This document shows positions 1 to 8,399 of a DNA stretch of 64,000 nt, one piece after another. Each line of letters opens with the position of its first letter. Position 1 is the stretch's first letter. Below the pieces are notes generated by a model. That model was not told the origin of the DNA, ran no database searches, and was given only the letters and a program-made list of their open reading frames with translations. The position numbers and the translations under genes were made by a program. Origin of the DNA: Promicromonospora sukumoe (lineage in GTDB: Bacteria > Actinomycetota > Actinomycetes > Actinomycetales > Cellulomonadaceae); NCBI RefSeq assembly GCF_014137995.1, contig NZ_JACGWV010000001.1, forward strand, positions 744,001-808,000, given 5' to 3'.

Positions 1-719
1 CCGCGCCCGGAGGCGGAGCGCGGCAGGTAGCGGGAGTAGTCGGCGGCCATGTTGACCCAGCCGAGCCCGAAGCCGGTCATCATGAACACGAGCCCGCCGA
101 TCACCTGCGGGCTGCCGCCGGCGGGGATGGCGGCGACCGTGGCCCAGTCGATGTGGTCGAGCACCAGGACGATGTAGACGACGGTGAGCACGGCGGTCAG
201 CACGGTGATGACCACCTGCAGCCGCATCACGAGGTCGAACCCGAAGATGCCGGCGACGACCACGATGCCCGCCACGACCACGAGGGCCACGACCTTGGTG
301 ACGGTGCCGCCGCCCCAGCCGAGCGTCCCGAGCACGGTCGACGTCGCGAGCGTGGCGAGCGCGACCAGCACGGTCTCCCAGCCGACGGTGAGCACCCAGG
401 ACAGCAGGGACGGGAGCTTGTTGCCCCGCACGCCGAACGCCGCCCGGGAGAGCACCATGGTGGGCGCCGACCCGCGCTTGCCGGCCAGCGAGATGAACCC
501 GCAGAACAGGAACGACACCACGATGCCGATGGTGCCGACGATGACGGCCTGCCAGAACGAGACGGCGAACCCGAGCAGGTACGAGCCGTACCCGAGGCCG
601 AGCACCGACACGTTGGCCCCGAACCAGGGCCAGAACAGGTTGCGTGGCGAACCGCGCCGTTCGGCCTCGTCGATGGTGTTCAGGGCATTGGTCTCGACGC
701 TCGTGGGCGCGCTGCTCAT
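1..719 (-). CDS. NCS1-family cytosine/purine permease (3' end cut by window)
   Basis: About 239 N-terminal residues of an integral membrane transporter are visible; the C-terminus lies beyond base 1. The start is the ATG at 717-719 (protein begins MSSAPTSVETNALNTIDEAE). The early motif RGSPRNLFWPWFGANVSVLG is the N-terminal signature of the nucleobase-cation-symport-1 family (cytosine permease, allantoin and hydantoin transporters). At least six hydrophobic segments follow, including GFAVSFWQAVIVGTIGIVVS and VITVLTAVLTVVYIVLVLDH. The likely role is uptake of cytosine or a related purine/pyrimidine base with a proton or sodium. The substrate cannot be read from the sequence. No neighbour in the window belongs to nucleobase catabolism. 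Confidence 0.85.
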   Translation of the reverse strand, partial: MSSAPTSVETNALNTIDEAERRGSPRNLFWPWFGANVSVLGLGYGSYLLGFAVSFWQAVIVGTIGIVVSFLFCGFISLAGKRGSAPTMVLSRAAFGVRGNKLPSLLSWVLTVGWETVLVALATLATSTVLGTLGWGGGTVTKVVALVVVAGIVVVAGIFGFDLVMRLQVVITVLTAVLTVVYIVLVLDHIDWATVAAIPAGGSPQVIGGLVFMMTGFGLGWVNMAADYSRYLPRSASGR

Positions 720-742
720 GGTGGCGATCCTGCCACGACGCA

Positions 743-777
743 CGAAGGGCCCGCACCGTGCTGGTGCGGGCCCTTCG
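743..777 (-). terminator. Hairpin downstream of the NlpC/P60 gene
   Basis: Perfect 15-bp inverted repeat (743-757 with 763-777, arm CGAAGGGCCCGCACC) with a 5-nt loop. It lies just beyond the stop of the minus-strand NlpC/P60 gene and before the permease start. There is no clear U-tract, as is common for actinobacterial terminators. Confidence 0.7.
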
Positions 778-826
778 AGCCGTGCGGGGCGGGCGTCGGC
801 TCCGGGGAAGCCGGAACGCCCGGGGG

Positions 827-1663
827 TCAGCTGATCCGGAGGTAGACCGGGCTGTCCTGCCAGATCTTGGACTCGCGGACGGTCTGGCCGGGGACCGGGG
901 CCTCGATCTGCATGCCGTTGCCGGTGTAGATGGAGACGTGGCCCGGGGACCAGATGATGTCGCCCGGCAGCGCCTCGGCCGCGGAGACCTGCGTGCCGGA
1001 GTTGCGCTGCGCCGCCGAGGAGTGCGGCAGCGTGATACCGATCTGGGCGTAGACGTAGGACGTGAAGCCCGAGCAGTCGAACCCGGCGGGGGTCGAGCCG
1101 CCCCAGACGTACGGGACGCCCAGGTACTGCATCGCGATGTCGACGATCTGCGACCCGGAGGAGGACGCCGGAGCGGCGGCGGCCTTCTGCACGGGCTCCT
1201 CGGCGACGGCGGCGGTCTCGGTGACCTCGGCCTGGACGGGCTCGGCCTCGACGACGGGCTCCGGCTCGGGCTCGGGCTCCGGCTCGGGGGCCGGCGTGAC
1301 CTTGATGGTGCCGGTCTCCAGCGTGAACTCGCTGTCCGCGGCGACCTTCACGGCCGGGGCGGTGTTCACCTTGGCGGTGACCAGCGCGGCGGTGCTCACG
1401 TCGGCGGTGGTCGACTTCGCGGCGGCGTCGCGGACGACGTCGCGCACGGCCTCGAGCTCGGCGGTGTTCGTGCCGGGGTCGCTCGCGGGGGCGGCGTTGG
1501 CCGGGACCCCGAGCAGCGAGACGAGCAGTCCCGATCCTGCGGCGACGACCGCGCCACGGCGGGCGGTCGCGGAGAGGCCGCGGGCTGCGGCGCGTGAGAA
1601 CGGCGTCAGCGGGGTGATGGGCGGGTGGGCAGCACGATGGCGCCCGGGCGTGCGTGTAGTCAC
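827..1663 (-). CDS. Secreted NlpC/P60 peptidoglycan endopeptidase
   Basis: A 278-aa cell-wall hydrolase predicted to cleave peptide stems of peptidoglycan outside the membrane. The GTG start at 1661-1663 is supported by a GGGAG Shine-Dalgarno about 7 nt upstream. Residues about 30-58 form a signal peptide ending PANAA. A Pro/Glu-rich spacer (repeated EP, about residues 125-140) leads to the C-terminal NlpC/P60 domain (about 170-278). Catalytic Cys197 is in FDCSGF and His242 in PGHVSIY. The leader RNA carries a c-di-AMP riboswitch, the usual control of such hydrolases in actinobacteria, so expression should respond to c-di-AMP and thus to osmotic and wall state. It is likely transcribed alone. 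Confidence 0.92.
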   Translation of the reverse strand: MTTRTPGRHRAAHPPITPLTPFSRAAARGLSATARRGAVVAAGSGLLVSLLGVPANAAPASDPGTNTAELEAVRDVVRDAAAKSTTADVSTAALVTAKVNTAPAVKVAADSEFTLETGTIKVTPAPEPEPEPEPEPVVEAEPVQAEVTETAAVAEEPVQKAAAAPASSSGSQIVDIAMQYLGVPYVWGGSTPAGFDCSGFTSYVYAQIGITLPHSSAAQRNSGTQVSAAEALPGDIIWSPGHVSIYTGNGMQIEAPVPGQTVRESKIWQDSPVYLRIS

Positions 1664-1677
1664 AGCATTTCTCCCGG

Positions 1678-1834
1678 CGCCTACGAGGTGAGCTGTCGGA
1701 TTCGGATCGGAGAATGACCCGGCCGCGTCGTGCTGGTGCGGCTTCACCCCAAGGGCACCGTCGGTGCCCACGTACTTGGTTCCCCCGTCCCTGTCATCTG
1801 TTCAGACAACTCGTGGCGGTGACAGGGCTCGGCG
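1678..1834 (-). ncRNA. c-di-AMP riboswitch (ydaO/yuaA class) in the leader of the NlpC/P60 gene
   Basis: On the minus strand the leader holds, in order, the conserved ydaO blocks: an opening CGCCGAG that can pair with the closing CTCGTAGGCG (P1), then GACAGGGACGGGGGAACC, TTGGGGTGAA, GGCCGGG and CCGACAGCTCACCTCGTAGG. The 3' edge is only a few bases from the GGGAG ribosome-binding site, so control could be by termination or by occlusion of the site. This RNA class binds cyclic di-AMP and often precedes NlpC/P60 and Rpf hydrolases in actinobacteria. The ends are set from P1 pairing by eye. Confidence 0.9.
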
Positions 1835-1970
1835 TCCACCACGAGTGCTCACGGAATGCCCGGGAGCGGGACCGACCGTAGCCCGCCTCGGCGCGAAAGT
1901 CACGATCGCGTTACGGGCGCAACCGACCGCCTCGGGCCTATTGACCGGAATGTCCGACCTGCACTAAAGG

Positions 1971-2005
1971 GTGGGCGCCGTCCCGGATCTGCGGACGGCG
2001 CCCAC
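1971..2005 (-). terminator. Intrinsic terminator of the FAD-linked oxidase gene
   Basis: Perfect 13-bp stem (1971-1983 with 1993-2005, GTGGGCGCCGTCC arm) and 9-nt loop, starting 18 nt past the oxidase stop. On the minus strand the stem is followed by CCCTTTAG, a short T-run. Confidence 0.75.
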
Positions 2006-2022
2006 CGGGCCGAAGGTCCCGA

Positions 2023-3426
2023 CTAGGACATCCGTCCAGGTCGCACATTGTGGTTCCGCGCGAAGAGGTTGCTCGGGTCGTACCGCCGCTTGACCGCCGC
2101 GAGCCGCTCGTAGGTCGGCTCCGGGTACACGGTTGTGACGTCGGTCTCATCGGCCGTCGAGAGGAAGTTCGCGTACGCACCGTGGAGGTGCGGAGCGAGC
2201 CTGTCCCACAGCGCGTCCAGCGCCGGCCGGGCGGCCTCGATCGCGGGCGCCGGGCCCCCGGTGAAGGTCGTGACCATGAGCTCTGCCTGCCGGTGCGCGT
2301 ACGCCGTGGCGTCGCCCGGCACCCGCGACATGGCGCCGCCGAGGCTGCGGACCGCGATCGACGGCGAGCCCGGCGTCGTGCCGGCCTCCGCGAGGATCGC
2401 CAGGGTCTCCGCGACCGACTCCCGGTCCACCAGGCCGTCGTGCGCGAGCACGTGGACACCGGGCGGCGGCGTCGCGCCCTCCACCAGGACGTCCGCGTAC
2501 GCCGTCAGCGCGACGTCGTCCGCGACGACCGTCCCGAGCGCGCGGATCGGGGCGAGCGCCCGGTCCGCGGCGTCCGCGTCGTCGCCGTCGAACGCCACGT
2601 GGATCTCCACCGGGGCCTCCGGGCCGCCCGCGAACGGGTTGGCGAGGTTCGCGATCGAGGTCAGCTCCTCCGGCGCCGTGCGCAGGTAGTCCGCCCAGCC
2701 CTGGAGCACGACGGCGGCCTCTGCCGCCGGGAACGAGACCTTGCCGAAGAAGACCCGCGTCGTCGGGTGCGCCACGAACTCGAACGAGGTCACCACGCCG
2801 AAGTTGCCGCCACCGCCGCGGATCGCCCAGAACAGGTCCGGGTGCTCGTCGGCGCTCGCGGTGACGACGGCGCCGTCGGCCGTGACGAGCTGCGCGGCGA
2901 CGAGGCTGTCCAGGGCCAGGCCGTAGCGGCGGACCTTCCAGCCCATGCCGCCGCTCAGCGTCAGCCCGCCGACGCCGACGCTCTTCGTGTCGCCCGAGGA
3001 GATCGCGAGGCCGTGCGGGGCCAGCGCGTCGGCGACCGGTCCCCAGGTGGCGCCGCCGCCGATCCGCACGAGGCGCGCTCCGCCGTCGACCGGAGCTGAG
3101 CCGCCGGCCGGCGTTCCACCGTCGACCCCCGCTGCGCCCTCGACCACCTCCACGCCGGCGAGCGCGCCGAGGTCGATGACGATGCCGCCGTCGTTGGTGC
3201 CGAAGCCGGCGAAGCCGTGCCCGCCGCCGCGGACGGACAGGGCGAGCCCGGAGCCGGAGGCGAACCGGACGGCCGCCTGCACGTCGGCCACGGTCTTGGG
3301 CCGCAGGACGTACGCCGGGCTGCCGGCGACGAGCCGCGACCGGGCGGCCGCCTCGTAGCCGGCGTCGCCCGGTTCGATGAGGTCGCCGCCGAAGTCGCGG
3401 CGCAGGGTGTCGAGTGCTGAGGTCAC
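2023..3426 (-). CDS. FAD-linked oxidase, berberine-bridge-enzyme-like
   Basis: A 467-aa flavoprotein of the FAD_binding_4 plus BBE family, which oxidises sugars, alcohols or secondary metabolites. The start is GTG 3424-3426, preceded at about 7 nt by AAGGA. N-terminal FAD-binding motifs are VAGSPAYVLRPKTVADVQAA, SVRGGGHGFAGFGTNDGG (the usual site of His-linked flavin) and the PP-loop region GGLTLSGGMGW. The C-terminal BBE signature is YDPSNLFARNHNVRP. No signal peptide is seen, so it is probably cytoplasmic. It is monocistronic and divergent from the kinase at 3541. The substrate is unknown. Confidence 0.9.
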   Translation of the reverse strand: MTSALDTLRRDFGGDLIEPGDAGYEAAARSRLVAGSPAYVLRPKTVADVQAAVRFASGSGLALSVRGGGHGFAGFGTNDGGIVIDLGALAGVEVVEGAAGVDGGTPAGGSAPVDGGARLVRIGGGATWGPVADALAPHGLAISSGDTKSVGVGGLTLSGGMGWKVRRYGLALDSLVAAQLVTADGAVVTASADEHPDLFWAIRGGGGNFGVVTSFEFVAHPTTRVFFGKVSFPAAEAAVVLQGWADYLRTAPEELTSIANLANPFAGGPEAPVEIHVAFDGDDADAADRALAPIRALGTVVADDVALTAYADVLVEGATPPPGVHVLAHDGLVDRESVAETLAILAEAGTTPGSPSIAVRSLGGAMSRVPGDATAYAHRQAELMVTTFTGGPAPAIEAARPALDALWDRLAPHLHGAYANFLSTADETDVTTVYPEPTYERLAAVKRRYDPSNLFARNHNVRPGRMS

Positions 3427-3540
3427 GAGAATTCCTTCCAGGGCTGGTGTGCCGAACGGAAGGAAGACTCGGTAGACCCGCCAGGTGTGACCGGACGGCG
3501 CCGTGACCTGGCTCACGCGGCCTGTGCCATCCTTCCGACC

Positions 3541-4059
3541 ATGGATCCCCTGGTCGTCCCGGTGCCGTCGCTCGTGCTGCTGATCGGCCCCTCCGGCTCG
3601 GGCAAGTCCACGTGGGCGGCGCGGCACTTCGGGCCCTACGAGGTGGTCTCGAGCGACCGGTGCCGCGCGATGATCGCCGACTCCGAGGCCGACCAGAGCG
3701 TGACGCCCGCGGCGTTCGAGCTCGTCCGGTTCATCGCCGCGCGGCGCCTGGAGGCAGGGCGCCTCGCCGTCGTCGACGCCACGAACGTGCACGCGGCCGC
3801 CCGGCGGCACAACCTCGACCTCGCGGCGGCCTGCGGGGTGCCCGCCGTCGCGATCGTCCTCGACCTGCCCGTCGAGCGGATGCTGGCGAACAACGCGGGC
3901 CGCGCCGGCCGGGTCGTGGACGACGAGGTGGTCCGGAGGCAGCGGCGCGACCTGGACGAGGCGCTCGGCGTCCTCGGCTCGGAGGGGTACGCCGCGGTCC
4001 ACGTGCTCGACGAGGCGACGATCGACGCCGTGACGATCGAACGGGTCCAGGAGCCCTAG
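3541..4059 (+). CDS. Small P-loop kinase (AAA_33, polynucleotide-kinase-like)
   Basis: A 172-aa ATPase. The Walker A motif GPSGSGKST is near residue 17, followed by VVSSDRCR, where the Asp after the strand is typical of the T4 polynucleotide-kinase/zeta-toxin-like AAA_33 family. VVDATNVHAAARR is the second family motif. It resembles the kinase module of bacterial Pnkp RNA-repair proteins but has no phosphatase or ligase domain. The ATG at 3541 gives a start close to the P-loop; an upstream GTG at 3487 is possible. Its stop overlaps the convergent stop of the STING-like fusion at 4056-4059. The substrate is unknown. Confidence 0.8.
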   Translation: MDPLVVPVPSLVLLIGPSGSGKSTWAARHFGPYEVVSSDRCRAMIADSEADQSVTPAAFELVRFIAARRLEAGRLAVVDATNVHAAARRHNLDLAAACGVPAVAIVLDLPVERMLANNAGRAGRVVDDEVVRRQRRDLDEALGVLGSEGYAAVHVLDEATIDAVTIERVQEP

Positions 4060-5819
4060 CGCAGCCCGGGGTCCAGCCCCGGGAACACGGCTCGCGCCCG
4101 CTCCACCCGGACGACGTCCCGCATGAGCCGCCCGCTCTCGCGCTCGGTGTCCTGCCGTACGCGGTCCAGGAGCCGCAGGTGGAACCGGTCGATCTCCTTG
4201 GCCTCCAGCTCGTCGCGCGCCGTGCGCAGGCGCGCCGTCTCCTCGCCGCCGACGCCGAGGTGCGCCACGCGCTGCTCGATCGTGTCGCTCATGGCCGACA
4301 TCGTGGTCGGGAAGACGTCCAGCAGTCGCAGCGGCTCGCCGCGGCGTGGTGGCAGGGCCTTCATCGAGCGGGGCCGCGACAGGTTGTCGTCGAGCACCGC
4401 GTCGACGATCTGCCCGGCCTCGGCGATCTCGCGCGCGATGAAGTCGTCCTGCGCCCACGACAGGTGCTCCGGCAGGACGACGGTCAGCGTGACCGTCGCG
4501 ACCTGCGCGGCCTTCAGGCGACGCCCGCCGACCGTGAGGTGCGCGCTGCCCGGGTCGTGCCGCAGGCGCCGCAGGATCTGGGAGACCGGCCGGACGAAGT
4601 TCTTGAGGTAGCCCAGGGAGAGCGCGTTCGCCGCCGAGATCTGGGTGAGCGGCGTCCGGAAGTAGGAGGTGAGCGGGTTGTCCGAGTCGGCGCGGCCGAG
4701 CGTCGCGAAGACGGACCGCACGTCGACCAACCGTTCCGCCAGCCGTTCACGGGACCCGGCCGGGTCGGAGGTGTCCAGCTCCAGCACCTGGAACATGCTC
4801 GCGCCGCCCGGGCGGCGCGCGGTGTCGACGATGACGACGTCGGGCACGCCCAGGGCCTGCGCGACACCCAGCTCGTACGTGACGCCCGGGTCCTCGTGGC
4901 TGATGTCGGCCAGCACGACCGCGGCGTCCTCGAGCTGGCGCAGGTCCTCCTCCGCGGTGTCGCCAGGCTGCGACTCGTACAGCTCCAGCCCGAGCTCCCG
5001 CAGCACGGGCATGACGACGTCGTCGCGCAGCGCGTCGCGGCGGCGCGCGTCGCCGTCGGCGGACTGGACGAGCACGCAGGTGCCCTGACGGGACAGCCCG
5101 TCGAGGGCGCGCAGGTCCGGCCAGTCCTGGATCATCCGGACCAGAGGCATGGCGAACGCGGCCGTGGGGTCGAGCCAGGCGCTCGGCCCGGCGGTACCGG
5201 CGCCGACGACGACGCTCTCCGGCAGCTCCGCGAGCGTCTGCAGGCCGATGACGCCGTTGCGGCTGACGCTCCACACCGCCCCGCCGCTGAACCCGCGGTG
5301 GACGAGCATGGGGGACTCGTACTGGAACATCCAGCCGTCGGAGTCGCCGCCCCGGATGGCCTTGCCGACCAGCCTGCCGCGCCCGGTCCGCTGCCAGCCC
5401 CTCGTGTTCTGCCCGTAGCCGCAGACGAGCACCTCGCCCTCGGCCTCCGCGGCGAGCACCACGGGGAGCGCCGAGCGGGTGGTGCTCGCGGTGAGCTGCA
5501 GGACGGCGAGATCGAGGTTCCGGGCCCGGTCGTGGACGGGGGCGAAGGTGAAGGTCGCGGTCTCTGGTGCCCGGGTCTCCGTCGCCGCGGGCTCGGCTGG
5601 CGTGCCCTCGCCGGAGGCGCTCGTCGGGAAGCGCACGTGGACCCGCGCCTCGGCCCCGGCGGCCTGCCACAACGGAGCGACGACGTGGGCCGCGGTCAGC
5701 AGGTGGCCCTGGTCGCTCACGAGCCAGGCCGTGCCGAGCGACGCGTCGCGCCTGCCGGTGACGCCGTCGACGTCGATGACCTCGCAGGTCGCCTGGGACA
5801 GCAGGCTCTCGATGTTCAC
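4056..5819 (-). CDS. Trypsin-like protease / deoxyribosyltransferase-like / STING-like fusion protein
   Basis: A 587-aa protein with three modules. (1) Residues 1-235 form a trypsin-fold serine protease: His45 in TAAHVV, Asp103 in NLDLAVL and Ser178 in GFSGGAV make the triad. (2) About 247-350 resemble a nucleoside 2-deoxyribosyltransferase/TIR-like Rossmann domain, with LADISHEDPGVTYELGVAQA matching the ADI(S/T)..NP.V.YELG signature. (3) About 386-545 look like prokaryotic STING: helix ANALSLGYLKNFVRPV, strand VTLTVVLPEHLS and the DVFPTTM element. No signal peptide or membrane segment is seen. It starts 4 nt after the Trypco1 gene ends (GTG at 5817-5819), so the two are probably co-translated. 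The likely role is a conflict or defence effector whose protease is gated by a nucleotide ligand; this is inference. The STING call rests on motif resemblance only. Confidence 0.72.
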   Translation of the reverse strand: MNIESLLSQATCEVIDVDGVTGRRDASLGTAWLVSDQGHLLTAAHVVAPLWQAAGAEARVHVRFPTSASGEGTPAEPAATETRAPETATFTFAPVHDRARNLDLAVLQLTASTTRSALPVVLAAEAEGEVLVCGYGQNTRGWQRTGRGRLVGKAIRGGDSDGWMFQYESPMLVHRGFSGGAVWSVSRNGVIGLQTLAELPESVVVGAGTAGPSAWLDPTAAFAMPLVRMIQDWPDLRALDGLSRQGTCVLVQSADGDARRRDALRDDVVMPVLRELGLELYESQPGDTAEEDLRQLEDAAVVLADISHEDPGVTYELGVAQALGVPDVVIVDTARRPGGASMFQVLELDTSDPAGSRERLAERLVDVRSVFATLGRADSDNPLTSYFRTPLTQISAANALSLGYLKNFVRPVSQILRRLRHDPGSAHLTVGGRRLKAAQVATVTLTVVLPEHLSWAQDDFIAREIAEAGQIVDAVLDDNLSRPRSMKALPPRRGEPLRLLDVFPTTMSAMSDTIEQRVAHLGVGGEETARLRTARDELEAKEIDRFHLRLLDRVRQDTERESGRLMRDVVRVERARAVFPGLDPGLR

Positions 5820-5823
5820 CGGG

Positions 5824-6186
5824 TCAGGCCGTGAAGTCCCAGGCGAGGGTCGCCGAGATGGCGCCCTCGCCCGTGGCCGACACGATCCACACGTTGCTGG
5901 TGGCGGAGAACGACAGGGACAGCGTCAGCTCCAGCGACTTCGGCGCGGCCGGGCCCTGCTTCTTGATCTCGGTGACGAGCGTGCGGGAGATGTCCTCGGT
6001 GATCTCGGAGAGCACCGCCTTGAGCTGCGTGTAACCGTCCTGGGTGCGCTCCACGAGGGAGCTGCTCTCGACCATGCCGTCCCAGTCCTCGTCGACGGGG
6101 ACCGGGGGCGGCACGTCGACGGTCGCCGTGCTGTTCGGCTCCATGTAGAGCACCGTGCGTCCCACCTGTAGCGGTACCGCCTCCAT
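5824..6186 (-). CDS. Trypco1 (CU044_2847-type) partner of the protease
   Basis: A 120-aa protein with the architecture of trypsin-co-occurring domain 1: an N-terminal beta segment (LQVGRTVLYMEPNSTATVDV), a central helix (LKAVLSEITEDISRTLVTEI) and a C-terminal pair of strands (SLELTLSLSFSATSN and GEGAISATLAWDF). In this family the last strands, ending in a T(V/L)xW-type motif, are the diagnostic part. Trypco1 proteins are typically encoded next to trypsin-like peptidases in actinobacterial conflict systems, and here the gene lies 4 nt upstream of one. It probably binds or is processed by the protease. ATG start at 6184-6186. Confidence 0.75.
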   Translation of the reverse strand: MEAVPLQVGRTVLYMEPNSTATVDVPPPVPVDEDWDGMVESSSLVERTQDGYTQLKAVLSEITEDISRTLVTEIKKQGPAAPKSLELTLSLSFSATSNVWIVSATGEGAISATLAWDFTA

Positions 6187-6286
6187 GGACCCGTCCGCCT
6201 CTTGATGCCGGCCGCCGTGCTGGACGCCTGGAGTCTATGGAGAGATACCCGGGTCCGATAGGGGGCGGTTCGAGCCTTCACCCAGG

Positions 6287-7300
6287 TCACGCACCGTCGA
6301 GCACCGCCTCGGCGACCACGAGGTCCTCCCACGACATGCCCGTGCTCTTGAACACGAGCGGCCGCTTGGGATCGGGGCGGACGGCGCCCGTGACGACGTC
6401 GCGCATCGGCACCAGGTCGCCCGCCGTCAGGGCGCCGTCGGCGATCGCGAGCACGACGTCGCCCGCCTCCCGCAGCGCGGCGCCCGGGTCCTCGACGACG
6501 ACGGTCGCGCGCGCCAGCAGACCGGCCGGCAGCTCCCGCGCGTCCGGCTCGTGGGAGCCCACCGCGATCACGACGGCGTGGTCCGCGACCAGCGCGGCGT
6601 CGAACAGCGGCTCGCGGGCCGACGTCGCGCACACGACGACGTCGGCGGCGCGCAGCGCGTCGTCGGCCTCGGGGCCGCCGAGCCGGACCAGTCGGGCGCC
6701 GGCGATCCGCGCGCCCTCGGTCGCGGCGGTGCGGGCCGGGTCGCGGACGAGCTGGGCGACGTCGAGAGGTCGGCCGGTCAGGGCGTCCGCGAGGGTCGCG
6801 ACGTGGCCGTGGGCCTGCGGGCCGGCGCCGATGACCGCGACGCGGAGCGGGTCGTTTGCGGGGGCTGAGCCGTCGGCGCCGTCGGTGCTGGTTGGGCCTG
6901 CGGTGCCGACCGGGCCCGCGGCTTCCCGCAGCCGGTCCAGCACCGCCGCGACCGACACGGCGGGCGTGCGCAGCGTGGTCAGCGCTATGCCGTCCAGGAC
7001 GGCGACGACGCCGAGGGTCGCGGCGTCGAACAGCACGTACGACCCCTGGATGCGGGGCAGGCCGAGGGCGGCGTTGCCGGGCGCGACGGTGGCCAGCTTG
7101 ATCCCGACGTGCCGCAGGTCGCCGCCGCCGTCGGACGGCATGAGCAGGAGCTCGCCGGCCCCCAGCGACACGCCCTGGCGGGGCAGGTCGGCGGCCGGGT
7201 CGAGACCGCCGGCGAGGGCGGCCCGCAGCGCGGCGACGGCGTCGGCGGGCGAGCAGGCAGCGGTCACGGCCGCGGCGTCCAGGACCAGGGGCGCGCTCAT
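6287..7300 (-). CDS. Ornithine cyclodeaminase / mu-crystallin family reductase
   Basis: A 337-aa NAD(P)-dependent enzyme. The Rossmann motif VAVIGAGPQAHGHVATLADA lies mid-protein, preceded by the family substrate region GDLRHVGIKLATVAPGN and followed by ADVVVCATSAREPLFD and VFKSTGMSWEDLVVAEAV. It overlaps the proline-racemase-family gene by 4 nt (ATGA), so the two form one operon. Paired with a proline racemase homologue, the most likely role is reduction of delta1-pyrroline-2-carboxylate (or another cyclic imino acid) in hydroxyproline or D-amino-acid catabolism, rather than true ornithine deamination. That role is inferred from the neighbour. Confidence 0.85.
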   Translation of the reverse strand: MSAPLVLDAAAVTAACSPADAVAALRAALAGGLDPAADLPRQGVSLGAGELLLMPSDGGGDLRHVGIKLATVAPGNAALGLPRIQGSYVLFDAATLGVVAVLDGIALTTLRTPAVSVAAVLDRLREAAGPVGTAGPTSTDGADGSAPANDPLRVAVIGAGPQAHGHVATLADALTGRPLDVAQLVRDPARTAATEGARIAGARLVRLGGPEADDALRAADVVVCATSAREPLFDAALVADHAVVIAVGSHEPDARELPAGLLARATVVVEDPGAALREAGDVVLAIADGALTAGDLVPMRDVVTGAVRPDPKRPLVFKSTGMSWEDLVVAEAVLDGA

Positions 7301-8349
7301 CGCAGCACGAACCCGGGCACGAGGGTGTCAGCGGCGTCGACGACGAACCGGTGCTCGCCCGTGCGGTACGCCATGCCCGTGACCTGGGGGATCACGGCGG
7401 GCAGGTCACCGACCCGCGTCGTCCCGACGACGGCGCCCGTGAACGCGGACCCGACGATCGAGGTGTGCTCCAGCACGGGTCCGCCGACGCCGACCCGGCC
7501 GTCGTCGGCCAGCACGGCCAGCCGCGCGCAGGTGCCGGAACCGCAGGGCGACCGGTCCACCTGGCCGTCGGCGAAGACGGTCACGTTGCGCTGGCGCACG
7601 GGGGAGCCGGGGCCGTTGCCGGTGCCGGGGCCTGCGCCGGTCCCGGCGTCGGGCTCCTCGAAGAGGATGGTGCCGTAGACGCCGCTCAGGCGCGGGTCGG
7701 TGGGATGGACGGCGAGGCCCTGGGCGTCGATCGCGTGCTTGATCTCGCGGCCCACGGTGATGAGGTCGGCGTAGGCGGCCGGCTCGACCGACAGACCGAG
7801 GCTCGTCGCGTCGACGCTCGCGTAGATCGCGCCCCCGTAGGTCAGCGTCGCGGACGCCGTGCCGCGCGTGGTCGGTACCGCCAGGTCGCGGGCCAGCACA
7901 TAGCTCGGCACGTTGACGAAGTCGACGCCGACGGTGCGTCCGCCGGCCCGGTGCACGCGCGCCGTGACGCGCCCCGAGGGCACGTCCATGACGACGTCGA
8001 CCGCACCGTCGTCGGGCGCAGCCACCAGTCCGGTGTCGACGGCCCAGGCGCCCAGCGCGATGGTGCCGTGACCGCAGGCCGTCGAGAATCCGTCCTTGTG
8101 CCAGAAGAGGACGCCGAGGTGGGCGCCGTCGTCGTCCGGCGGGACGAGGAACCCGCCGTACATGTCGGCGTGCCCGCGCGGCTCCGAGCACAGGAGCTGG
8201 CGCAGCTCCTGGGCCGCGGCGCTGGTCAGGGCGCGGGCCCGGCGGTCGGCCACCGAGTCGCCCGGCAGCGGCACGGGCGGCTCCGCGACAATCCGGAACG
8301 GCTCGCCCGCGGTGTGGTAGTCGGTGGTGGCGACGGTCTGCGTGATCAC
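7297..8349 (-). CDS. Proline racemase / 4-hydroxyproline epimerase family protein
   Basis: About 350 aa of the proline racemase fold. Both catalytic cysteines are present: one in TACGHGTIAL and one in SPCGSGT. Two cysteines favour racemase or epimerase chemistry over the trans-3-hydroxyproline dehydratase branch, where one is replaced by Ser/Thr. Other family motifs are TDYHTAGEPFRIV at the N-terminus and EPRGHADMYGGFL. The GTG at 8347-8349 is chosen because GAGGA lies 7 nt upstream; an in-frame ATG at 8367 is an alternative. It ends in a 4-nt overlap with the cyclodeaminase-family gene, and the two probably interconvert and reduce a proline derivative. A regulator or transporter is not adjacent. 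Confidence 0.88.
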   Translation of the reverse strand: MITQTVATTDYHTAGEPFRIVAEPPVPLPGDSVADRRARALTSAAAQELRQLLCSEPRGHADMYGGFLVPPDDDGAHLGVLFWHKDGFSTACGHGTIALGAWAVDTGLVAAPDDGAVDVVMDVPSGRVTARVHRAGGRTVGVDFVNVPSYVLARDLAVPTTRGTASATLTYGGAIYASVDATSLGLSVEPAAYADLITVGREIKHAIDAQGLAVHPTDPRLSGVYGTILFEEPDAGTGAGPGTGNGPGSPVRQRNVTVFADGQVDRSPCGSGTCARLAVLADDGRVGVGGPVLEHTSIVGSAFTGAVVGTTRVGDLPAVIPQVTGMAYRTGEHRFVVDAADTLVPGFVLR

Positions 8350-8399
8350 GCCGCCATCCTCGGCCATGGGGAAGAGGGCGTCCACGGGGCTTGGTGCGT

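Follow-up and report, generated by a model that had tools for sequence, protein, structure and literature searches.

A three-domain protease, DRHyd and STING fusion protein encoded beside a Trypco1 gene in Promicromonospora sukumoe

A stretch of 64,000 nucleotides from the genome of Promicromonospora sukumoe, a soil-type actinobacterium (contig NZ_JACGWV010000001.1, positions 744,001 to 808,000 of the forward strand, called the window here) contains a two-gene operon whose second gene encodes a protein of three domains, namely a trypsin/HtrA-like protease, a nucleoside deoxyribosyltransferase-like (DRHyd) domain and a C-terminal domain of the bacterial counterpart of STING, an immune sensor in humans (Table 1). 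The fusion gene is an open reading frame (ORF) that runs from 5819 to 4056 on the reverse strand, begins with GTG and has a GC fraction of 0.97 at codon position 3, and a gap of 4 nucleotides (5820-5823) separates it from the Trypco1 gene on the same strand. All three domains of the fusion protein, and Trypco1 itself, exceed the curated Pfam cut-offs, with Trypsin_2 matching residues 29-193 (1.8e-13), Nuc_deoxyrib_tr (PF05014) residues 267-336 (31.5 bits, cut-off 28.8) and prok_STING (PF20300) residues 396-550 (48.5 bits against 27.1). An initial annotation of this DNA had placed the protease triad at H45, D103 and S178, had pointed to the blocks LADISHEDPGVTYELG, SLGYLKNFVRPV, VVLPEHLS and FPTT, and had set a Trypco1 gene 4 nucleotides upstream, and all of these features are found as it described them. 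The highest 19-residue Kyte-Doolittle mean of the fusion protein is 1.37 and, since there is no long hydrophobic stretch, the protein is predicted to be cytosolic. A profile search of the same genome gives no second prok_STING match.

Table 1. Features of the locus, in window positions
Feature	Position	Strand	Evidence
Three-domain protein (protease + DRHyd + STING), 587 aa	4056..5819	-	Pfam; 14 relatives; AlphaFold2 mean pLDDT 77.4
Trypsin/HtrA-like protease domain, residues 1-238, triad H45, D103, S178	5106..5819	-	
DRHyd domain (resembling nucleoside deoxyribosyltransferases), residues 246-374, with D292 + E316 as candidate catalytic pair	4698..5084	-	PF05014 2.2e-7; Rcl 2khz; 23/23 rows
STING domain, residues 396-587, predicted pocket Y404, N407, F408, R482-P-R484, D501, T505	4059..4634	-	PF20300 1.2e-12; PDB STING chains by profile; Foldseek 9lmq
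Trypco1, 120 aa, encoded by the leading gene of the operon	5824..6186	-	PF19493 1.4e-8
Free-standing polynucleotide kinase domain of the Pnkp type (AAA_33), convergent with the STING gene	3541..4059	+	AAA_33 3.6e-28 (ORF 3487-4059); 4gp6 5.6e-37
Segment absent from congener G832	3521..6285	.	blastn comparison of the window with L021 and L032

Among 5.8 billion proteins, of which the 7995 with the most words in common were scored, 14 relatives turn up at 39-96% identity over 97-100% of the length; Trypsin_2 and prok_STING are listed for every one of them and PF05014 for one. The closest among the candidates scored (P0001, 96% identity) is itself labelled Promicromonospora sukumoe. A profile search recovers the same 14 relatives, a search with the STING region only adds five more, and the resulting family alignment has 23 rows, including three proteins translated from loci. 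A genome scan gave 11 loci; in five of them (L008-L012) the match is confined to residues 17-237 or a part of these, and they are excluded from every count, leaving six true relatives, three from Myceligenerans and three from Nocardioides. All three domains are under purifying selection, with ratios of nonsynonymous to synonymous substitution (dN/dS) of 0.10-0.32 in each of them for five of the six possible within-genus locus pairs (three Myceligenerans and two Nocardioides pairs); the lone cross-genus pair gives 0.47-0.56 at high divergence, to which no interpretation is attached. With 14 relatives over 97-100% of its length and low within-genus dN/dS, the fusion gene is more than a chance ORF.

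The STING fold is recognised by three routes. PF20300 is over its cut-off here and in all three relatives scanned, STING chains of the PDB are matched by profile, and Foldseek, run on the full-length AlphaFold2 (AF2) model and not on a separately folded STING domain, finds TIR-STING chains at ranks 1-3, 9 and 22 of the 50 matches listed, the remaining 45 being serine proteases. The top match among the 50 is 9lmq (3.2e-11), a chain of TIR-STING with cyclic di-GMP (c-di-GMP), and because its alignment has 355 columns for a 312-residue chain it presumably covers DRHyd plus STING. The PADLOC profile for TIR effectors also matches the STING region weakly (2.4e-5). The initial annotation had named two grounds for giving up its STING assignment, the prediction of no STING fold and the family-wide mutation of ligand-site residues. 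Foldseek retrieves STING structures and the main pocket residues are kept in 23/23 rows, so that the assignment is supported.

The putative pocket is conserved in some detail, with Y404, N407, F408, R482, R484, D501, P504 and T505 kept in 23/23 rows and P483 in 21/23. The lid of the domain reads RPR (R482-P-R484) and aligns with the RPR of PDB chains 6wt5 and 8hy9; RxR is the motif of class II bacterial STING (PMC8748872). The pocket of ElSTING with bound cyclic di-AMP (c-di-AMP) includes Y165, N168, F169, R230, D251 and T254 (PMC10739871), and by a positional reading by eye these correspond to the invariant Y404, N407, F408, R482, D501 and T505. The sequence of the pocket favours c-di-GMP or 3'3'-cyclic GMP-AMP (3'3'-cGAMP) as the ligand. 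Several details weigh against the gated module proposed below. The predicted template modelling score (pTM) of the AF2 model is 0.44, which makes its domain arrangement unreliable, and the Foldseek TIR-STING alignment has a root-mean-square deviation of 15.4 and TM values of 0.24/0.42, meaning that the two domains are not superposed together. Moreover, S485 and M486 stand where the ElSTING lid has P233 and L234, and P411 and I415 stand where ElSTING has T172 and A176. Against 8hwj, whose lid is of class I type, the alignment as printed pairs P with P in a register shifted by two columns from the RxR reading, and 6wt4 aligns only weakly.

The DRHyd domain keeps D292 and E316 in 23/23 alignment rows, and these correspond to residues of the deoxynucleoside 5'-monophosphate N-hydrolase DNPH1/Rcl that are taken here to be its catalytic pair. 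Rcl (2khz) is matched by the family profile at 7.5e-5 and shares with the domain a YEL motif and a D...E pair set 24 residues apart. On the other side, PF05014 falls below its cut-off in two and is unlisted in one of three relatives re-scanned, it is listed for only 1/14 relatives in the protein search, and the sugar-phosphate binding (phosphate) loop of Rcl is not evident. DRHyd belongs to the TIR-DrHyd-SLOG clade, the same as TIR, and some versions are described as an NADase effector equivalent to TIR (PMC9503650).

For the Trypsin_2 domain, the protease fold and the His-Asp-Ser triad are both found by Pfam, by the alignment and by VIA-align with the AF2 model, all 50 rows of which are proteases, hence providing no test of the STING part. 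H45 and D103 are kept in all 21 covering rows of the 23, the proteins P0015 and P0017 being without N-terminal residues and excluded from that count, and S178 is kept in 23/23. In trypsin the residue six before the catalytic serine determines Arg/Lys specificity. The equivalent residue here, L172, is a nearly invariant leucine across the family, so that a hydrophobic, HtrA-like specificity is more likely. The NCBIfam Avs1b model matches the protease part weakly (15.4 bits against a cut-off of 1500).

Trypco1 is a constant companion of the fusion gene. In 7/7 loci, the window and the six relative loci, it is over the Pfam cut-off (PF19493) and its gene ends within a few bases of the fusion-gene start. 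The initial annotation had paired the protease with Trypco1 and had found no linked cGAS/DncV-like nucleotidyltransferase (CD-NTase), and the family and genome searches support both points. The predicted Trypco1 structure has a mean pLDDT (predicted local distance difference test) of 52.4, too low to use. The remaining neighbours, predicted ORFs judged by eye, seem to vary from locus to locus, and the two immediate flanking genes scanned with Pfam are not defence genes, which counts against a role in defence.

The presence of the module is patchy. prok_STING occurs in 1/396 sampled genomes of the order and 1/394 of the class, the samples overlapping and the one being this genome, and the fusion is present in 1/13 searched genomes of the genus, again this one only. 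The flanking OCD gene is found in seven congeners, of which three keep both flanks; the other four align on the OCD side only and so carry no information on the insertion site. In G832, window positions 1-3520 and 6286-8386 align by blastn with 23 bases between them, and in G758 the flanks lie 110 bases apart, both being empty sites. In G837 about 1.1 kb that cannot be aligned to the window (L034 9850-10979) lies between the flanks, and because of this non-aligning sequence the site may be a recurrent insertion spot. The fusion, Trypco1 and the adjacent kinase are absent by tblastn (E 0.01) from these three both-flank stretches. The module was thus either acquired or lost as one unit of about 2.8 kb. 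Carriage on mobile elements was considered and not supported, with no match in the plasmid search and no relative confirmed in viral contigs; a phage search gave three weak matches (E 1e-3) limited to residues 268-385, the DRHyd region. A search for terminal repeats of the inserted segment gave a lone 10-base inverted match, to which no interpretation is given; each of its copies falls within an aligned flank or on its border.

Bacterial STING is usually described with a CD-NTase of the same operon as its signal source (PMC8748872), and there are three known families of cyclic-dinucleotide synthase, GGDEF, DAC/DisA and CD-NTase (PMC8204762). These were sought with one Pfam profile per family (SMODS, PF18144, and GGDEF, PF00990) in six genomes that carry the module, namely this genome and five relatives' genomes, that of L004 being left out and three of the six coming from one genus. 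The P. sukumoe genome, 98.8% complete, has two SMODS CD-NTases and one DisA, and the profile search gives no GGDEF match in it. The initial statement that no cyclase lies nearby holds for the window as judged with the SMODS profile, but the genome has these two CD-NTases (139.7 and 40.8 bits) at C1:674828-677967, about 70 kb from the fusion gene. For one of them the nearest PDB entries are a cyclic GMP-AMP synthase and CdnG, and the other carries an AGS_C domain. Their cluster (G000:C1:674000-678100; L015 9001-13100) includes an E2 gene (PADLOC, 1.9e-40) and a SLATT-like gene of 177 aa (its 20.9 bits fall short of the cut-off, 27), which is a candidate for the cluster's own effector. Judged by gene content, the two CD-NTases with the E2 and SLATT-like genes are a cyclic oligonucleotide-based antiphage signalling system (CBASS) cluster about 70 kb from the module; it adjoins a gene with AAA_30, DnaG-like and Toprim domains.

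Among the five relatives' genomes a SMODS-type CD-NTase is found in none (one profile). GGDEF is matched in one of them, L003 (Myceligenerans pegani; L016 1333-2655, reverse strand), where the protein has GADSF in place of the expected GG[DE]EF and is probably inactive. With no SMODS match in the relatives and an intact GGDEF found in none of the six module genomes, the source of the ligand predicted from the pocket is missing, which again weighs against the gated module proposed below. The absence is suggestive only, because three of the six genomes share one genus. As proof regarding the use of c-di-GMP it is weak, 9/13 genomes of the genus having no GGDEF anyway (4/13 have it), against 87/147 genomes of the Nocardioides genus and 99/150 of the family, 34 of these 99 having a best E-value weaker than 1e-20 by hand count. 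The weak single matches in many family genomes may be the same gene type as the L003 GADSF protein. DisA is present in 6/6 module genomes and is the sole cyclic-dinucleotide synthase family found in all six, so that genome content favours c-di-AMP as the ligand. In a CBASS the CD-NTase is encoded with the effector; here the nearest in the own genome lies about 70 kb away, outside the window, and the relatives have 0/5 with the one profile. Because a linked CD-NTase was looked for and not found, the module is filed as a STING protein and not as CBASS.

With moderate confidence, the two genes most likely form an abortive-infection (phage-defence) module that is gated by a cyclic dinucleotide and whose signal is made in trans. 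A cyclic dinucleotide produced elsewhere in the cell would bind the RxR-type STING dimer, which would then oligomerise, gathering and switching on both the DRHyd domain, at the position of TIR in TIR-STING, and the HtrA-like protease. The DRHyd domain would hydrolyse a nucleotide (NAD or a deoxynucleotide) while the protease cuts proteins, such that growth stops, and Trypco1 would be the constant protease partner, whether as adaptor, inhibitor or substrate. The precedent is TIR-STING, where lid closure on the ligand and stacking of the dimers into filaments turn on the TIR NADase activity (PMC9402430). Ligand binding, oligomerisation, the enzyme activities and the immune role of the present module are all put forward as proposals.

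It is unlikely, though conceivable, that the STING domain is instead wired to the housekeeping c-di-AMP made by DisA, with DNA damage or phage attack on the chromosome altering the c-di-AMP level and so gating the protease, and a CD-NTase being unnecessary. DisA in 6/6 module genomes, SMODS in 0/5 relatives, and GGDEF with no match in five module genomes and a degenerate one in the other, would all suit such an arrangement, but DisA is common in actinobacteria and its presence is for that reason weak evidence. Binding of c-di-AMP is described for ElSTING, as is, for some species, a linkage between STING and DisA genes (PMC10739871, the latter citing Burroughs and Aravind 2020), whereas ElTIR-STING is not activated by c-di-AMP (PMC10739871). 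Moreover, it is STING proteins binding c-di-GMP or cGAMP that carry the RxR lid, P411 and I415 replace the c-di-AMP-favouring T172 and A176 of ElSTING, and the own genome does carry two CD-NTases. A CD-NTase-free STING pathway, in which phage genome damage would lead through the housekeeping c-di-AMP of DisA, a scanner of DNA integrity, to a STING-gated protease and nucleotide hydrolase and thence to proteolytic arrest, is regarded with the same reserve.

The remaining explanations are less probable still. In the own genome the fusion could act in trans as an effector for the two CD-NTases of the distant CBASS cluster (about 70 kb), one of which is nearest to a cyclic GMP-AMP synthase and CdnG in the PDB and the other of which has AGS_C; this is rather improbable, as those enzymes adjoin E2 and a SLATT-like gene and 5/5 relatives' genomes have the module without a SMODS match. 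The chance is similarly small that two profiles overlooked, in the relatives, either a CD-NTase of the STING-linked clade E or a diguanylate cyclase of divergent sequence, making the module ordinary CBASS acting in trans. The search was limited to PF18144 and PF00990, and PF18144 has no positive control on STING-linked CdnE: no STING-CdnE locus was found in plasmids or viral contigs to serve as one, and the PDB relatives of the own CD-NTases supplied no clade E test. Yet PF18144 caught two quite different CD-NTases here, and the cyclase is described as lying in the STING operon (PMC8748872), unlike here. Very improbable indeed is a STING domain that serves as an oligomerisation module only, sensing being left to Trypco1 or another partner; the constant Trypco1 linkage and the missing cyclase would fit, but ligand-contacting residues would not be expected to remain invariant in 23/23 rows.

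Among known systems, the gated module favoured above resembles TIR-STING (Cap12 of CBASS; 9lmq, SfSTING 7un8), which likewise has a C-terminal STING after a Rossmann-like domain and is the top Foldseek match. Unlike TIR-STING, DRHyd here replaces TIR, an N-terminal protease is added, Trypco1 is a partner, and there is no CD-NTase in the operon nor, with the SMODS profile, in 5/5 relatives' genomes. Class II (RxR) STING systems, which are fed by a CD-NTase, differ in their effector domains. It is their RPR lid (PMC8748872; RiSTING in PMC10739871) with which R482-P-R484 aligns. Trypsin-STING and deoxyribohydrolase-STING fusions, the same kinds of fusion, have already been published in one sentence (PMC10732462; Burroughs and Aravind 2020, J Bacteriol 202, via PMC10732462 and PMC10739871). 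Trypco1 also stands beside a trypsin-like peptidase in the VMAP ternary systems, whose further partners are MoxR, vWA and VMAP, the likeness here being that of the Trypco1-peptidase pair; the text on those systems mentions STING 0 times (Kaur et al. 2020, PMC7159879). The fusion class is hence already known, whilst the three-domain fusion, Trypco1 with STING, and STING in CD-NTase-free genomes have no description in the literature searched, most subscription papers and Burroughs and Aravind 2020 being outside that search; the three-domain form, the Trypco1 operon and the missing cyclase are accordingly not found in print. Exceptions to the operon-borne CD-NTase, in the form of DisA-linked STING, are hinted at (PMC10739871). 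A STING family in genomes seemingly without a CD-NTase and an active diguanylate cyclase would point to an unrecognised synthase or to STING signalling by a housekeeping messenger. Such a family would in addition put proteolysis under STING control, comparable with the caspase/inflammasome logic of animals, and with candidate residues and a two-gene operon to hand the question of its trigger is readily testable.

The initial annotation also cited a c-di-AMP riboswitch at 1.7 kb in naming c-di-AMP as a conceivable ligand. The riboswitch is real (RF00379, 62.5 bits, 1664-1818, reverse strand), lies outside the inserted segment and adjoins the start of an ORF that, read by eye, resembles NlpC/P60. 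As a clue to the ligand it is rejected: 3/3 fetched stretches from congeners, none of which has the module, carry it at the same place, and in 6/6 relative loci (about 21.6 kb each) no copy lies within about 10 kb of the module, so that its proximity is coincidental.

The Pnkp-type kinase gene lies inside the same absent segment and is adjacent to the module in 3/7 loci; whether it belongs to the module is uncertain. In L005 and L006 a relative of it (62-67% identical) stands just upstream of Trypco1, a different arrangement, and the kinase has perhaps joined the module in two independent associations.

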